Source: Myxococcaceae bacterium
GTDB taxonomy: Bacteria > Myxococcota > Myxococcia > Myxococcales > Myxococcaceae
Direction of reading: 5' to 3'
Assembly: GCA_016793095.1 (NCBI GenBank)
Contig: JAEUJQ010000039.1
Coordinates: forward strand, 1-64,000
Length of the DNA stretch: 64,000 nt
Part shown: piece by piece, positions 8,549 to 63,705 of the stretch
Numbering within the stretch: position 1 is the stretch's first letter
How the letters are laid out: each line of letters opens with the position of its first letter
Translations under genes and position numbers: made by a program
The notes under the pieces: generated by a model
Database searches by the model: none
Seen by the model: the letters and a program-made list of their open reading frames with translations, nothing else
Told to the model about the DNA's origin: nothing

Positions 8549-8729
8549 CGCCTCCCGCAGGAGGGCCGCTCTCGCGCGTCGAGAAAAGGGCTCACGCGCA
8601 CCACCGGGCCAGTACCTGCGGGTGGTTCAGCTGGTGGAGCGCGCACGCCCCTGTTGCCGCCGCCGCTACACGCCCGCGCCCCGCCGCCGAATGGACGGCC
8701 TGCGCAGGTCTGCTTGAACTGGGGCTCCA

Positions 8730-10130
8730 GTGGTCTTCGCGAGCCTCGTCTTCCTCTACGCGTTCCTGCCAGCGAACCTGGTGCTGTACTTCGCGTGGTC
8801 GAACCCCACCTGGCGCAACTGGCTGCTCATCGCCTTCTCGCTCTTCTTCTACGCGTGGGGCGAGCCGGTGTGGATCTCGCTGCTGCTCCTCACCACGACG
8901 GTGGACTACGGCATCGGCCTGCTGGTGGAGCGCTGGCGCGGCACCCCGCGCGCGAAGGCGGCGCTCGTCGCCTCGCTCTGCTCGAACCTCGGCCTGCTCG
9001 CGGTCTTCAAGTACAGCGGCTTCTTCGTCGAGACGGTGAACGCGGCGCTGGGCACGACGCTGGCGGCGCCCCCGTTCTCGCTGCCGGTCGGCATCTCGTT
9101 CTACACGTTCCAGTCCATCTCCTACGTGGTGGACGTGTACCGCGGCGAGGTGAAGGCGCAGCGCAGCTGGGCGAAGTTCCTGCTCTTCGTCAGCCTGTAC
9201 CACCAGCTCGTCGCGGGCCCCATCGTCCGCTACCAGACGATCGCGAATCAGATCGACGCGCGCCGCCACTCCATCGACCTGTTCGCCTCGGGCGTGCTGC
9301 GCTTCGCGCTCGGCCTCTTCAAGAAGGTCTGCGTCGCGAACGTCGCCGGCGAGCTGGTGAAGAAGACGCTCGGCGTCGAGGGCCTCGCCGGGCTGTCGGT
9401 GGCCGACGGCTGGTTCGGCCTCGCGATGTACACGCTGCAGATCTACTTCGACTTCTCGGGCTACTCCGACATGGCCATCGGCCTCGGCCGGATGATGGGC
9501 TTCCACTACCTCGAGAACTTCGACCACCCGTACGTCGCGCGCTCGGTGACGGAGTTCTGGCGCCGCTGGCACATCTCGCTGTCCACCTTCTTCCGCGACT
9601 ACGTCTACATCCCGCTCGGCGGGCGCGGGCACCGGCCGTACCGCAACCTCTTCATCGTCTGGTTCCTCACCGGCCTGTGGCACGGCGCGAGCTGGAACTT
9701 CGTGCTCTGGGGCCTGTACTACGGCGTGCACATCGCGCTCGAGCGGGCCTTCCTCGGCAAGGCGCTGCTCAAGCTGCCGCGGGTGGTGCAGCACCTCTGG
9801 CTGCTCTTCGTGGTGATGGTGGGGTGGGCGCTGTTCTTCTTCACCGACCTGAAGACGTTGGGCGGCTTCCTCGCGCTCGCGTTCGGAGCGACCGCCGCGC
9901 CGCTGGTGGGCGCCGACACCGCCCAGCTGGTGATGACGCACGGCTTCTGGCTCGCGTTCGCGGTGACGCTCTGCCTCCCACTCGAGCGCCTCGTCTTCCC
10001 CGACACGCAGCACGAGCGCCCGCCCCTGGTGCACCTCGGCCGCGGGCTCGCCACCGTCCTCTTCACGCTGCTCGCGACCGCGATGCTGGTGGGTAAGAGC
10101 TACAACCCGTTCCTCTATTACCGGTTCTGA
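8730..10130 (+). CDS. MBOAT family membrane O-acyltransferase (AlgI-like)
   Basis: 466 residues, close to AlgI. It is a polytopic membrane protein with about ten hydrophobic helices. The family signatures are present: GPIVRYQ, the FDFSGYSDMAIGLGRMMG stretch, FWRRWHISLSTFFRDYVYIPLGG, and the catalytic histidine in LTGLWHGASWNF (His318). AlgI-type MBOATs take an acyl group from a cytosolic donor and pass it across the inner membrane to partners that acylate an exported polysaccharide. The next gene encodes such a partner (DHHW protein) three bases downstream, then an SGNH hydrolase two bases further on. The start is a GTG, chosen because the first transmembrane helix follows at once. The polysaccharide substrate cannot be told from sequence. 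Confidence 0.93.
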   Translation: MVFASLVFLYAFLPANLVLYFAWSNPTWRNWLLIAFSLFFYAWGEPVWISLLLLTTTVDYGIGLLVERWRGTPRAKAALVASLCSNLGLLAVFKYSGFFVETVNAALGTTLAAPPFSLPVGISFYTFQSISYVVDVYRGEVKAQRSWAKFLLFVSLYHQLVAGPIVRYQTIANQIDARRHSIDLFASGVLRFALGLFKKVCVANVAGELVKKTLGVEGLAGLSVADGWFGLAMYTLQIYFDFSGYSDMAIGLGRMMGFHYLENFDHPYVARSVTEFWRRWHISLSTFFRDYVYIPLGGRGHRPYRNLFIVWFLTGLWHGASWNFVLWGLYYGVHIALERAFLGKALLKLPRVVQHLWLLFVVMVGWALFFFTDLKTLGGFLALAFGATAAPLVGADTAQLVMTHGFWLAFAVTLCLPLERLVFPDTQHERPPLVHLGRGLATVLFTLLATAMLVGKSYNPFLYYRF

Positions 10131-10133
10131 CCC

Positions 10134-11564
10134 GTGCGCCCCTCCATCTTCTTCAGCGCGGTGGCGGTGCCGGTGCTCCTGGTGGGCCTGGGCGCGTGGT
10201 TCTTCGTGGCGCCGACGCGCGCCGAGGTGTCCCAGGTCGAGGCGCGCGCGCTGGCGAAGCTGCCGGCGTTCACGTTCGAGGCGCTGCGCTCGGGCCGGTA
10301 CGCGAAGGACCTCGACCTCTACGTCGCCGACCACTTCCCGCTGCGCGAGCACTTCGTCTCGTTCACCTTCGCGCTGCGCGCGCGCTTCGGCGTGCGGCGC
10401 GAGTCCACCGTCTACAAGGCAAAGGGTGGGGCGCTGGGAGGCTTCGAGCAACAGGACTGGGCGCCGGTGGTCGAGGTCGCCGACGCGGCGGTCGAAGCCG
10501 ACCCGTTCGCCGACGAGGACGCGGGCACACCGGACGCAGGAGACGACGCCGGCGTGACGGTGGAAGCAGACGACGGTGGCGCGCTGGTCGCCGAGCTCGA
10601 AACGGACGACGCGGGCGTCGAGGAGCCCGTCGAGCCGCGCATGACCGAGATGGGTGGCGTCCTCATCCACAAGGGGCGCGGCATGATGCTGCTCGACGCC
10701 ACCGACGAGACGGCGACGAAGTTCGCGAAGGTGCTCGCGTCGTACGGCGCTGCCTTTCCGCGCTCGCGGGTCTACGCGGTGATGGTGCCTGGCGCTGGAG
10801 CTTTCTACCTGCCGCTCTCGCAGAAGCAGCGCAGCGCCGACGAGCTGCACAACCTCGCCGTCGTCCGCGACGCGTTGCCGCCGTCCGTGACGTGGGTGGA
10901 CGTCGCCGCCGCCCTCGCGCCGCACGCGAGCGAGCCCATCTATTACCGTACGGACCACCACTGGACGGGCCTGGGCGCGTACTACGCGTACCGCGCGATG
11001 CTGGAGGCCGCCGGGCTCGAGCCGCTGCCGCGCGCTTCCTTCGAGTGGAAGCGCCTGCGGACGCCGACGCTCGGCTCGCTCTTCCGCATGACGCAGGACC
11101 TGCAGCTCGAGCGCGCGCCCGACGTCACCGAGTACCCCGTGCCGCCGGTCGAGTACCAGTCGGTCAGCTACGTCGGTGCGAAGTACGACGTGCCCCAGCA
11201 GCGCCGGTTCCTCGACGAGAAGGGCGAGGGGTACCTCGTCTACATGGGCGGCGACGCGGCGCTGATGGCGGCGAAGGCGAAGGGCGTGAAGAACGGCCGG
11301 CGCGCGCTGTTGGTGAAGAACTCCTTCGGCAACCCGCTCGGGCCGCTGCTGTTGCCGCACTTCGAGCAGGTGGTGGTGGTGGACTACCGCATGTACTTCG
11401 GCACCGTCGCCTCGCTCGTGAAGCGCTTCCGCATCACCGACGTCTTCGTGCAGAACGCGACGCTGACGGCGAACGACCCGTACCACCGCGGCCGCCTCAA
11501 GCTCGCGCTCTTCACCACGGTGACGTTCACCGACGGCGGCGTGGTGTTCGGGAAGGACCGCTGA
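10134..11564 (+). CDS. DHHW-motif acetyltransferase-like protein (AlgJ/AlgX-like) with an acidic insertion
   Basis: 476 residues, GTG start three bases after the MBOAT stop. One N-terminal hydrophobic helix (about 4-24, FFSAVAVPVLLVGLGAWFFV) serves as signal or anchor, placing the rest in the periplasm. The family motif DHHW is at 274-277 in YYRTDHHWTGLGAYY, and a candidate catalytic serine lies in LVKNSFGNP (Ser397), as in AlgJ/AlgX SGNH-like folds. These proteins accept the acyl group from the MBOAT and modify the polysaccharide. Unusual is a low-complexity Asp/Glu/Ala/Gly insert at about 112-170 before the conserved core resumes at RGRGMMLLDATDE-like sequence. I infer a loop extension rather than a separate domain. 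Confidence 0.9.
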   Translation: MRPSIFFSAVAVPVLLVGLGAWFFVAPTRAEVSQVEARALAKLPAFTFEALRSGRYAKDLDLYVADHFPLREHFVSFTFALRARFGVRRESTVYKAKGGALGGFEQQDWAPVVEVADAAVEADPFADEDAGTPDAGDDAGVTVEADDGGALVAELETDDAGVEEPVEPRMTEMGGVLIHKGRGMMLLDATDETATKFAKVLASYGAAFPRSRVYAVMVPGAGAFYLPLSQKQRSADELHNLAVVRDALPPSVTWVDVAAALAPHASEPIYYRTDHHWTGLGAYYAYRAMLEAAGLEPLPRASFEWKRLRTPTLGSLFRMTQDLQLERAPDVTEYPVPPVEYQSVSYVGAKYDVPQQRRFLDEKGEGYLVYMGGDAALMAAKAKGVKNGRRALLVKNSFGNPLGPLLLPHFEQVVVVDYRMYFGTVASLVKRFRITDVFVQNATLTANDPYHRGRLKLALFTTVTFTDGGVVFGKDR

Positions 11565-16160: not shown

Positions 16161-16335
16161 CCGCTCACCGCTGAGGTCTCCCTGCACCCGCAGGGCGCTC
16201 GGCGAGACGGGTGCGCGAACCGCTTCATCGACGACTCCGGACGACGGGCCGCTCTGACAGGGGCGGCACGCAGGGAGCTCAACCCGTGGGGCGACGAAGT
16301 TCACTGCCGCTGAGAGTGGGCTAGCCTCCCCGGTG

Positions 16336-58734: not shown

Positions 58735-59304
58735 ATGGCTTCCGCAGTCACGCAGCCCCGGATGTCGTGGAAGGACTTCGTCGCCTTCGAGCGAGCGGCC
58801 TCGGAGAAGCACGAGTTTCTCCGGGGAGAGGTCTGGGCGATGGCAGGGGGCACGCCTGAACACGGCCGCCTCGCCGCGAACGTGATGCGAGCCCTCGGGA
58901 ACACGCTCCAGGGCCGCCCCTGTGTCGTGATGAGCTCGGACGTCCGGGTTCGGGTTCGCGACACCGATCGGTCGACCTACCCCGACGCGTTCGTCGTCTG
59001 CGGACGCCTCGAGCACGACCCGGACGACGAGAACACCATCACCAATCCACTCATCATCGTCGAGGTCCTCTCAGCCAGCACCGAGGCCAGCGACCGCGGC
59101 GAGAAGTTCGCGCACTACCAGCACCTCACGTCGCTCCGCGACTATGTGCTCATTTCGCAGACGGAGAGGCGAATCGAGGTCTTCTCTCGCGGCGCCGGAG
59201 CCTCGTGGTTGATGACGCCCTATGGCCCCGGTCAGCGCGTGCCGCTCCCCTCGGTGAACGTCGAGCTCGACCTCGACGCGCTCTACTTCAACCCGCTCGC
59301 GTGA
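58735..59304 (+). CDS. Uma2 family (DUF820) endonuclease-like protein
   Basis: 189 residues from the ATG at 58735; two GTG codons precede it. The family pattern is clear: KHEFLRGEVWAMAGGTPEHG, LGNTLQGRPCVVMSSDVRVR, YPDAFVVCGRLEHD (metal Asp), NPLIIVEVLSASTEASDRG (EVLS with the catalytic Glu), FAHYQHLTSLRDYVLISQTE and the final RVPLPSVNVELDLDALYF. This is a PD-(D/E)xK nuclease fold (DUF820). Most Uma2 proteins have no known substrate. It is cytosolic. It stands alone, 35 bases after the lipoprotein gene. Confidence 0.95.
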   Translation: MASAVTQPRMSWKDFVAFERAASEKHEFLRGEVWAMAGGTPEHGRLAANVMRALGNTLQGRPCVVMSSDVRVRVRDTDRSTYPDAFVVCGRLEHDPDDENTITNPLIIVEVLSASTEASDRGEKFAHYQHLTSLRDYVLISQTERRIEVFSRGAGASWLMTPYGPGQRVPLPSVNVELDLDALYFNPLA

Positions 59305-59359
59305 CTCGCCTGACCGTGGACAGCCGTCAGGGGTCCACCCGCGGCGTGGTCAGCCAGCG

Positions 59360-59911
59360 CTACTGCACCGTGCGCGCGACCCGCAGCACCGCCACGCTGA
59401 AGGTCGCGCCCACCGCGCGGGCCGTCGTGACGTTCACCATCGGCTGCGGCTTGCCGTTCGTCGCCACCACGCCGACGAGGGCCCCGGCGCTCACGTCGGC
59501 CGCGGTCAGCGCGAGCGAGTACCGGCCCTGGCGCTTCGCGGCCTCGAGCGCGGCCTTCACGTCTTCGGGCGAGAGCGCGCTCGAGAGCAGGACCGCGTCG
59601 GCCGTGTCGCCGCCGCCCGCGTCGTCGCCGCCCGCCCCTGTCACCCGGTAGACGAGCGCGCGCTTCTTGATGCGCTTCACCTCGAGCCCCTGGAGGCTCG
59701 CGACGAGCGCAGCGGCCTCGGCCTCACGCCCCTTCGACGCGGGCACTGACACGACGAAGTCACCCTGGCCGCGGCGCTCGAAGCCTTCGTCGTAGGTGAG
59801 CACCTTGAGCATCACCAGCATCGCCTGCGACACCGGCACCTCGGCCGACGCGCCCTGACCGGCCGCGGCCGTCGCGATGAGCAGTGAAGCGCTGGCGGCG
59901 AGCCACCTCAC
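59360..59911 (-). CDS. YfiR-like (DUF4154) periplasmic protein
   Basis: 183 residues. The GTG at 59911 overlaps the stop of the TonB-receptor gene by four bases (GTGA) and opens a signal peptide (WLAASASLLIATAAAGQG). The domain has the YfiR outline: SQAMLVMLKVLTYDEGFERR, then FVVSVPASKGREAEAAALVA, KKRALVYRVTGAG, ADAVLLSSALSPEDVKAALE, YSLALTAADVSAGALVGVV and a final MVNVTTARAVGATFSVAVLR. YfiR proteins repress membrane diguanylate cyclases in some species. DUF4154 proteins next to TonB receptors are common and their role there is unclear. Confidence 0.8.
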   Translation of the reverse strand: MRWLAASASLLIATAAAGQGASAEVPVSQAMLVMLKVLTYDEGFERRGQGDFVVSVPASKGREAEAAALVASLQGLEVKRIKKRALVYRVTGAGGDDAGGGDTADAVLLSSALSPEDVKAALEAAKRQGRYSLALTAADVSAGALVGVVATNGKPQPMVNVTTARAVGATFSVAVLRVARTVQ

Positions 59912-61884
59912 TTCGCGGGAGCTCCGAACGCGTAGCTCGCGCGCACGAAGAACTCGCGCCCGCGCCCGGGGATGGGCGCCGTCCCTCCGGCGTAGGGCTG
60001 GGCGAAGGCGACGTTCGCGTCGAGCAGGTTCCCGACGCCCACCTGCGCCGAGAGCCCTTCGAGGCCCAGGTTGTCGGCGCCCAGCCAGAGCGCCAGCAGC
60101 AGCGCCGGCGCGAGCTGCCCCACCACGCCGTTGCCATCGAAGACGTCGGTCGGCGTCACCAGCGCCTGCCTGCCGGAGAAGAAGACGGCGCTGCCGCCGA
60201 GCGAGAAGCGCTGCGTCAGCCGGAGCCGGCCGAAGGCGGTGGCCTTCACCAGCGGCATCGCGAGCAGCGTCGGCGTCGGCGCCCCGGGGACCAACCAGGT
60301 GTCGATGTCCTCTGCGATGACTGGCGCCGCCAGCGCCGCGGTCGCGGTGAGCGAGCCGTGCCGGCCCCGCAGCCGCACCAGCGCCTCGGCGCCCGCGGTC
60401 GAGACGACCCCACCGTTGCGGTACGACTCCTCGCCGGTCTCGGCATCGACGCCGTAGACGATGGGCGCGTTGAGCGAGGTGTAGAAGCCGTTCACCGAGA
60501 GGTACGTGAAGTCGCCGACCGTCACGCCCACCTCGGCCTCCGCGACGTGGGTGCGCTCGGACTTGAGCGTCGGGTTGCCGTTCAGGTTCTCGATGGAGGG
60601 GTTGCGGAACGCGCCGCCGTAGAGGGCCTTGAGGTTCACCGGGCCAAGCTGCTTCGTCAGCGCGACCCGGGGCGCCACGTTGGCCCCCACGGCCGAGTGC
60701 CACTCGAAGCGGCCTCCCGCGGTGACGTTGACGACGGGCGTGTCCCACTGCCCCTGGAGCCAGGTCGCGACGCTGCCGTAGCTGACGGTCGAGCGGCCGT
60801 CGAAGCGGCTCTGCACACCCAGCTCGCGCTCGTTGTTGAGCCACGCGTGGTCCCAGAAGCCATCGACGCCGCCCGACAGCGTGAGCGACTCGAGCGGCCG
60901 CCAGAAGGCCGTCAACCCGACGAGCAGGCGCGAGGCCGACTTGTCGTAGAAGAAGGGCGAGCGCTCGTCGGCGGTCCGCCACGGCACCTGCAGGCGGGCG
61001 GTCGCGCGAGGGCGGAGCGTGAGGGTCGCGCCCACGGGCAGGTCGGCCTGCACGTCGCCCAGCATCGTACGGAACGTCGAGACTTCGTTGGGCCCGGGCA
61101 GCTCTCCGTAGCCGACCCGCTGGCCCAGCACCTGGTCGTCCACCAGCACGCGGGCGCGAAGGCGCTTCCAGGCCAGGCTCGCCGTCAGCATCATCGGGTC
61201 GAGCGGCTGGTCGCCGAGCGGGGCCGAGTTGCCCTGGTAGTCCGTCCAGGTTCGACGGGTGAAGCGGCCCTCGCCGCGGGCCGCGTGCACGCTCCACTCG
61301 ACGTCTTCGGCGTCGTGCCGGGCGCCTGCCGAGCCCGCGAGGGACCAGTCGTGAAAGCCCTGCAGCCCGGCGGCGAAGCGCCCGGCCAGCTCGCCACCCT
61401 GCAGCGTGCGTCCCTGCCGCGTCACCACGTTGATGACGGCGAGCTCGGCGCTGCCCCCGTACAGGGCCGAGCCGGGACCGCGAATGACCTCGAGCCGCTC
61501 GATGGTGTGCGCGAGGATGTGGTGACCGAACTGCGTGACCGCGTACAGGAGCTCGTTCAGCTCCTAGCCATCGAGCAGGACCAGCACCTTGCCCTCGTGG
61601 CCCCACAGGCCGCGGAACGCCACGCCGACCACGCCGGTGACGTCGTGGTGGAAGGTGAAGCCCGGCAGCAGCTGAAGCACCTCGAGCAGGTCCCTGGCGC
61701 CCGAGGCCACGATCTCCTCGCGCGTGACCAGCAGCACGACGTTGGGCGCCTCGCGCGTCGTCCTGGCGTCTCGCGTGGCGACCTCGCCGGGCGCGTCGAG
61801 CAGCGCTTCGAGGGAGAACTCGTCGATGTCGGCGCCATCACCGGGTGCGCCTGACAGCAGCGCCAATACGAGGCTGAACGTCAT
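59908..61884 (-). pseudogene. TonB-dependent receptor with an in-frame amber codon
   Basis: From the ATG at 61884, an export signal (MTFSLVLALLSGAPG) leads to a plug domain: APNVVLLVTREEIVASGARD, LLEVLQLLPGFTFHHDVTG, then VLVLLDG. A single TAG (61564-61566) replaces the expected codon before ELNELLYAVTQFG, and the frame continues unbroken with IERLEVIRGPGSALYGGS, AVINVVTRQGR and a 22-strand-type barrel to a terminal FVRASYAFGAPAK. In all, 658 codons, normal for a small receptor. CAG to TAG is the simplest cause. Ligand unknown. It may be a pseudogene, a sequencing error, or read through. The downstream YfiR-like gene still overlaps its stop. Confidence 0.85.
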
Positions 61885-61929
61885 GGGCGGCCAGATACCA
61901 CTTTCGCGGGCGGGTACAGGGGTGTCGGC

Positions 61930-63699
61930 TCACTTCGCTCCAGCAGGCCCACGGGAGAGCTCGAGCCCCAGGCGCCGGGCCCGGCGCGCGAAGGTGACCG
62001 GGTCGACGCCCAGCTCGAGCGCCGCGCGCCGGGCGATGCCGTGGTGCCGCGCGAGCGCCTCGGCGATGGCCTCGCGCTCGGCCCGGGCGACCTGGTCTCT
62101 GAGCGTGACGCCGGCGGGCGGGCGGGCCCCGAACGCGCGGGGCAGGTGCGATGGCTCGATGAGGGCGCCCGTCGGGCAGACCAGCACCGCGCGCTCCACC
62201 ACGTTGCGCAGCTCGCGCACGTTGCCCGGGAACGGGGCCGCGAGCAGCGCCCGCTCGGCCGCGGTGGACAGCCCCATCACCCCCTTGCCGTGCTGGTGGT
62301 TGAAGAGGTCGACGAACCAGCGCGCCAGCGGCACCACGTCTTCCCGCCGCTCGCGCAGCGGCGCCACGTCGATGGTGAAGGTGTTGAGGCGGAAGTAGAG
62401 GTCGCCGCGGAACCGGCCGGCGGCCACGTCGCTCGAGAGGTCCCGGTTGCTCGCGGCCACCAGCCGCACGTCGGTGCGGCGCGTCTGCGTGCCGCCCACT
62501 GGCCGCAGCTCGCCGGTCTCGAGCACGCGGAGCAGCTTCGCCTGCAGCGCCGGGGTGGTGTTCTCGATCTCATCGAGGAAGACGGTGCCGCCGTCGCCCA
62601 GCACGAACAGCCCGGGGTGGTCGCTCACCGCGCCGGTGAAGGCGCCGCGCACGTGGCCGAAGAGCTCGCTCTCGAGCAGCGTCTCGCTCAGCACGCCGCA
62701 GTCCTGCACCACGAAGGGCCGATCGCGCCGCTCGGACATGCGGTGCACGATGCGCGCGAGCACCTCCTTGCCGGTGCCCGTCTCGCCCTGCAGCAGCACG
62801 GCCACCTTGTACGGCGCCGCCAGGCGCACCTGCTCGAGCACGCCCTGCATGGCCGCGCTCTGGAAGCCCGGGCCCGCCTCGATGGGCCTGGGCGCCGGCC
62901 CCGCGCGCAGCGCCTTCTCACGCTGCAGGTTGCGCTCGAGCTCCTGGGCCATGCGCTCCTGCTCGAGGCGCAGGGCGTGCTCGGCGCAGGCGTCCATCAC
63001 CGCGGCCCGCAGGCTCTCCACCGCCAACGGGGGCACGAGCCGCCGTGAGATCTTCTTCTGGTCGAAGAGCGTCGCGAGGTGGTCGGGCGCGGCCATCGCG
63101 CAGAACACGACCCGGGCGGCGAGATCGCGCGGGCGGCCCTCGAACGTCAGGTTGTCTTCGGTGACGGCGGCGGCGAGCTCGGCCAGCAGCAGCGCGCGCA
63201 CCTCGTCGTCGCCACAGATGAGCAGGGCCGACACGTCGCCCCGCGCGAGAATGGCCTCGACCTCGGGGTTCTCGGCGCCGAACTCGAGCTGCACCACGTC
63301 GCCCAGCGCGGCCTCGATGAGCTGCCGCGTGGCCGCGTCGGCGTAGGCCACCGCCACCCGCACCGGCGGCCCCGCGAGGTACCGGGCCAGCCGCAGGGCG
63401 CCGTCCTCCTCGAACCCCGTGAACACCACCCCGAACGCCGTCGAGGCCTGCTCGCGGTTCGGCGCGTCGTGCCGCCAGCGCACCTCGCCCCGGATGAGCA
63501 GCGGCACCTCGTCGTTCGGGAGCCGCAGCTCGAGCTCGACCGTCTCTCCTTCCACCGGCCCCACCCCTCCCGGTGGGCTCCCGATGAGGCCGATGCCGGT
63601 CTGGCTGATGTTGACGCTCCAACATCGCGGAATGGGCGGCTCCGTCACCACCCGCACCTGCAGCGGCCGACGATGACTTCGCTCGAGAAACTGGTGCAT
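61930..63699 (-). CDS. PilZ and AAA+ sigma54-dependent transcriptional activator
   Basis: 589 residues from the ATG at 63699 (GTG at 63702 possible). A PilZ-like domain (about 1-110) opens with RSHRRPLQVRVVTE and continues with SVNISQTGIGL, fitting c-di-GMP binding, where Arg residues and (D/N)xSxxG are key. About 112-240 resembles a receiver fold but lacks an obvious phospho-acceptor. The AAA+ domain has GETGTGKEVLARIVH (Walker A), GHVRGAFTGAVSD (sigma54 contact), GTVFLDEIEN (Walker B) and NVRELRNVVERAV. The C-terminal FIS-type helix-turn-helix is at about 545-585. It should activate sigma54 promoters in response to c-di-GMP. Its targets are not known; the TonB/YfiR pair lies downstream on the same strand. 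Confidence 0.93.
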   Translation of the reverse strand: MHQFLERSHRRPLQVRVVTEPPIPRCWSVNISQTGIGLIGSPPGGVGPVEGETVELELRLPNDEVPLLIRGEVRWRHDAPNREQASTAFGVVFTGFEEDGALRLARYLAGPPVRVAVAYADAATRQLIEAALGDVVQLEFGAENPEVEAILARGDVSALLICGDDEVRALLLAELAAAVTEDNLTFEGRPRDLAARVVFCAMAAPDHLATLFDQKKISRRLVPPLAVESLRAAVMDACAEHALRLEQERMAQELERNLQREKALRAGPAPRPIEAGPGFQSAAMQGVLEQVRLAAPYKVAVLLQGETGTGKEVLARIVHRMSERRDRPFVVQDCGVLSETLLESELFGHVRGAFTGAVSDHPGLFVLGDGGTVFLDEIENTTPALQAKLLRVLETGELRPVGGTQTRRTDVRLVAASNRDLSSDVAAGRFRGDLYFRLNTFTIDVAPLRERREDVVPLARWFVDLFNHQHGKGVMGLSTAAERALLAAPFPGNVRELRNVVERAVLVCPTGALIEPSHLPRAFGARPPAGVTLRDQVARAEREAIAEALARHHGIARRAALELGVDPVTFARRARRLGLELSRGPAGAK

Positions 63700-63705
63700 C
63701 ACAAT

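Follow-up and report, generated by a model that had tools for sequence, protein, structure and literature searches.

We find that a TonB-dependent outer-membrane receptor gene in a soil-type Myxococcaceae bacterium is interrupted by a single in-frame TAG codon within its plug domain, and consider it probable, at about 70%, that the gene is a young nonsense null allele, or incipient pseudogene, of a receptor coupled to a YfiR-like gene. The stop lies in a frame that relatives keep open, the sequence after it has changed no more than that of an intact congener, and the genome carries no visible means of reading UAG as an amino acid. The features referred to below are located in the window, the whole stretch of 64,000 nucleotides that was analysed:

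59908 to 61884, minus strand: TonB-dependent receptor gene with an in-frame TAG (translation; Pfam Plug at residues 43-146; full-length homology, 66% to the copy in genome G004)
61567 to 61884, minus strand: part before the TAG, 106 residues under the standard code, covering the N terminus and the start of the plug (listed ORF 61564-61884)
61564 to 61566, minus strand: codon 107, the TAG that interrupts the plug; one of the window's two CTAG words arises here
59911 to 61563, minus strand: part after the TAG, 551 codons with the remainder of the plug and the C-terminal region; not more changed than in the congener
59360 to 59911, minus strand: YfiR/HmsC-like (DUF4154) gene, 183 residues (Pfam PF13689, E 9.1e-6)
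61930 to 63702, minus strand: PilZ and sigma-54 activator gene, 45 bases upstream of the receptor (Pfam)

Results

A receptor frame interrupted within the plug

The frame runs from an ATG over 658 codons to a TGA, and translation confirms the first-pass annotation in that its one internal stop is the TAG at 61564-61566, between the residues LLDG and ELNELL. That the stop interrupts plug sequence holds as well: in a Pfam run on the translation with TAG read as Q, the Plug profile PF07715 covers residues 43-146 and spans codon 107 (57.1 bits against a cut-off of 23.9, E 2.9e-15). Homology to other receptors, at identities of 66-36%, is full-length on both sides of the TAG, and GC content by codon position is coding-like before it (0.76/0.43/0.92) and after it (0.71/0.51/0.95). 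Because the Plug profile and the alignment to an intact congener (66%, full length) both cross the stop, the interrupted frame is, on sequence grounds, not a chance open frame. The gene resembles TonB-dependent receptors (PF07715) in its Plug domain, its length and its full-length relatives, and differs from them in the premature TAG and in having no named equivalog above cut-off in NCBIfam, the best match, TonB_dep_TOL0244, falling far below its own. Pfam, in which Plug was the sole domain found, gave no profile for the 22-strand C-terminal barrel. A long ORF on the plus strand (59884-61854) was discarded as a probable shadow of the receptor's high-GC third positions. Phase variation by repeats or inversion was likewise rejected, a repeat search of 59300-62000 yielding weak chance-like matches only.

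The stop is private to this genome

Across 96 genomes of the family, an internal stop occurs in one of 58 homologous places (E <= 1e-60), that of the receptor studied here. Wider relatives were found with an alignment-based scan of genome contigs, a single-protein scan having given none; the best 80 of 167 named relatives all cover the site and none has an internal stop. Stops flagged in L209 and L210 proved to be those genes' own terminal stops. Comparison with close relatives, one of the checks proposed in the first-pass annotation, therefore gave the same stop in none of the other 57 places and in none of these 80 relatives. At codon 107 the best 80 carry Q in 63 cases, H, K and M in 3 each, I, V and L in 2 each, and E and F once each. 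A second set of 36 relatives, which we take to include many Corallococcus- and Myxococcus-like genomes, shows K 25, Q 6, V 2, H 2 and I 1, and the split between a Q-rich and a K-rich set reflects their differing make-up. All four closest relatives have glutamine at the site, encoded by CAA in G001 and G004 and by CAG in L113 and L114. An origin by a single change from CAG to TAG had been proposed; the ancestral glutamine it implies is well borne out, by 63 of the best 80 relatives and by the four closest, whereas the CAG itself is less secure, since the two closest use CAA.

The intact copy in G004, a Myxococcaceae MAG (JALOQF010000016.1), is 66% identical to the interrupted receptor, and the copies in two Archangium MAGs (L139 and L140) are 63% and 59% identical. 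Further full-length relatives come from Myxococcota, Bacteroidota and Elusimicrobia. The receptor family as a whole has relatives in Myxococcota, Bacteroidota, Elusimicrobia and Acidobacteria (L002, L113 and L114 among others).

The sequence after the stop shows no excess change

In an NG86 comparison with G004, the part before the stop has a dN/dS of 0.19/0.59 and the part after it one of 0.28/0.62. These values are rough under the strong codon bias, and their ratios are high yet below 1; the difference in dN simply means that conservation is stronger in the plug than elsewhere in the gene. Downstream of the stop, the amino-acid changes assigned to each branch number 49 in the interrupted gene against 58 in G004 with L113 as outgroup, and 50 against 54 with L114. 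Near-invariant columns after the stop are changed in 6 of 75 cases in the interrupted gene, 5 of 73 in G004, 5 of 74 in L003, 2 of 71 in L114 and 0 of 69 in L113. The claim that there is no decay downstream of the TAG is thus upheld by the branch counts, and no second lesion or relaxed constraint is visible after it. Since the gene has not changed more than the congener's copy beyond the stop, the TAG would appear to have arisen late, or not to be real, and the gene could be a pseudogene of at most very young age. As neither a second lesion nor relaxed constraint is seen, selection may have acted on the gene until very lately, or may act still.

The letters around the stop are suggestive in the same direction. 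The receptor TAG is preceded by C and so forms CTAG at 61564-61567, a word that occurs once more in the window (16321-16324), two occurrences against a shuffle mean of 58. An 804 kb sample of the same genome, made up of the window and 37 stretches of 20 kb, holds 44 copies against about 402 expected, a depletion of ~9-fold, and C precedes 3 of 40 terminal TAGs in it, compared with 181 of 373 terminal TGA and TAA codons. An avoided word fits a young mutation or an error, and less an old, kept signal.

Damage and absence in the genus

The closest homologue, in G001, is 78-83% identical in protein over the aligned pieces and has Q at the site. This copy is frameshifted by a loss of 7 bases near codon 174, counted by eye, and its receptor homology stops at codon 200 (L073:6156), where unrelated coding sequence follows; the assembly is in 450 contigs, and a misassembly at the junction is possible, so that the truncation could in part be an artefact of assembly. 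The remnant occupies L073:5573-6156, the next ORF looks methyltransferase-like by eye, and the 12 kb stretch searched contains no YfiR match. The receptor is found in three of seven members of the genus at E <= 1e-60 and is intact in one of the three. No match at that threshold was obtained in G002, G003, G005 or G006, two of which are incomplete (G003 87%, G005 85%). Given the four members without a copy and the truncated, frameshifted remnant in G001, the receptor looks dispensable in the genus, as far as these assemblies go.

UAG looks like an ordinary stop in this genome

ARAGORN assigned an anticodon to all 56 tRNA genes found with RF00005, and none of them is CUA; the assembly is 98.65% complete, and a tRNA may lie in the missing part. 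A tRNA-Leu whose anticodon letters are 'tag' was dismissed as an amber suppressor, as it reads CUA leucine codons. An odd tRNA-Gln with a 4-pair anticodon stem, an idea taken from the part of PMC13092985 available, was also discarded, both tRNA-Gln genes folding with 5 pairs. RF1 (prfA, TIGR00019) is intact, with 471.6 bits, above the curated cut-off, and GGQ in frame. PylS is represented by a single match of 23.3 bits, far under its cut-off of 178.15.

Among 413 coding-like ORFs in the 804 kb, TGA is the terminal stop of 359, TAG of 40 (~10%, a number that may count the receptor's own TAG) and TAA of 14. Internal stops are absent from all 74 ABC domains and from the 17 other plug domains, the 18th being the interrupted receptor; among kinase domains (151 matches, at least one of them unlisted) none of those listed has a stop. 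At 19 stops in the 804 kb (14 TGA, 4 TAG, 1 TAA), coding-like sequence continues in the same frame on either side. Ten of the 18 besides the receptor's were run through Pfam, the remaining 8 all being TGA, and no domain reached across any of these ten stops. The ten are apparently cases of adjacent genes that by chance lie in one frame, and the receptor is the sole demonstrated split gene among the flanked stops tested. Two of the checks first suggested for this site, for a suppressor tRNA and for other in-frame TAGs, have accordingly come back empty over the 56 tRNA genes and over the ABC, other plug and listed kinase domains.

Two further observations concern other parts of the genome. On contig C39 (L055:143-956, L056:9167-9331), 8 tRNA genes, mostly low-scoring, lie within 1 kb, and a further tRNA pair is found 53 kb away; the arrangement is unlike the rest of the genome, the GC content is host-like (0.70-0.71), and the cluster may be a tRNA array carried by a mobile element or prophage. 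Within the window, at 8718-11561 on the plus strand, MBOAT acyltransferase and DHHW/AlgX-like genes share one frame with a TGA between them and probably form an acetylation operon.

The YfiR-like gene downstream

The YfiR-like gene, the genome's only DUF4154 match, passes PF13689 marginally (26.3 bits against a cut-off of 24.9). Its GTG start (59911-59909) overlaps the receptor's TGA (59910-59908), and a Shine-Dalgarno-like GGAG lies 10 bases before the GTG. The first-pass annotation had warned that the stop would cost this gene its translational coupling. The overlap is real and the worry reasonable; the statement is too strong in that, with a GGAG of its own, the gene need not depend wholly on coupling. 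The junction in G004 has the same overlap, and in G010 a YfiR match follows directly after the receptor (tblastn), the receptor family thus being coupled to a YfiR-like gene in three genomes. Compared with G004 the YfiR-like gene is open and less constrained (49% identity, dN 0.46, dS 0.67). The PilZ and sigma-54 activator gene on the other side of the receptor gave no tblastn match in the searched stretches of G001, G004 and G010.

Discussion

The allele combines a disabling lesion with intact orthologues, 57 of the 58 homologous places being free of a stop and the G004 copy intact. Signs that selection has relaxed beyond the stop, or additional lesions there, as an established pseudogene would have, were not found. 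Ribosomes would terminate at codon 107 by way of RF1 and release a fragment of 106 residues without a barrel, and no working receptor would be made. The YfiR-like gene is intact, and its translation would probably be reduced by the loss of coupling, with polarity as a possible further cause, though not abolished given its own GGAG and GTG start. Loss of the receptor probably followed the end of a need for its substrate.

The annotation had left three options, a recent mutation, an error or tolerance by readthrough, and it is the recent mutation that the lack of excess change, the broken sister copy and the avoided CTAG favour most. That the consensus is wrong here through sequencing, assembly or a mixture of strains, and that the organism's own gene is intact, is unlikely but not negligible: the lesion is a single base with no other beside it and no excess change after it, the CTAG it creates is a word depleted ~9-fold, and the genome, in 93 contigs, may be a metagenome assembly. 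Among the ABC, plug and kinase domains listed, however, no other stop occurs, so base errors that create stops are uncommon here, and the sister copy in G001 is broken too.

Low-level readthrough of the TAG by near-cognate tRNAs, yielding a little full-length receptor, strikes us as improbable. It would account for the purifying selection still visible in dN/dS after the stop, yet a pairwise dN/dS mostly reflects the time preceding the TAG. The available text of a large-scale survey of bacterial in-frame stops with constraint after them (Belinky et al. 2021, PMC7918605) argues for readthrough at many such stops, where dN/dS stays under 1 and expression may be lowered, and also describes in-frame stops as mostly short-lived. 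The receptor TAG resembles the stops of that text, whose worked example (Figure 1) is a TAG/CAG site, in aligning with glutamine codons and in the constraint visible after it; unlike theirs, which is common to several genomes, it occurs in one genome and is shared with none of the other 57 places or the best 80 of 167 relatives. RF1 and the ordinary 5-pair anticodon stems of both tRNA-Gln genes also speak against readthrough, and with no CUA anticodon and other family domains free of stops, the readthrough option of the annotation finds no support here. Still less do we favour a TAG that serves as a translational attenuator, near-cognate decoding keeping the receptor very low and setting the level of the YfiR-like protein through the overlap. 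Reassignment or recoding of UAG by a suppressor tRNA or pyrrolysine is barely conceivable: an incomplete assembly could omit a tRNA, and no tRNA-Ala(TGC), for example, was seen among the 56, but no CUA anticodon occurs in these 56, RF1 is present, the PylS-like match reaches 23.3 of 178.15 bits and TAG ends 40 of 413 coding-like ORFs. Suppressor tRNA, pyrrolysine and loss of RF1 were rejected on these counts.

A young null allele of the receptor is thus an ordinary case that serves mostly as calibration, a clean amber codon within a frame of high GC content being explained here without any recoding. Should the TAG be real and peptides be found to span it, the gene would become a test case for in-frame stops that lower expression and do not kill genes. 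The downstream gene belongs to the same Pfam family as YfiR (DUF4154) of the YfiBNR system of Pseudomonas aeruginosa, as far as the available part of PMC4655355 describes it, and differs from that system in that its partner is a TonB-dependent receptor; the papers listed by a literature search revealed, in their titles and the opening lines of their abstracts, no operon of YfiR/DUF4154 with such a receptor. The independent damage to the copy in a sister species suggests that the genus is in the course of losing this YfiR-coupled receptor.
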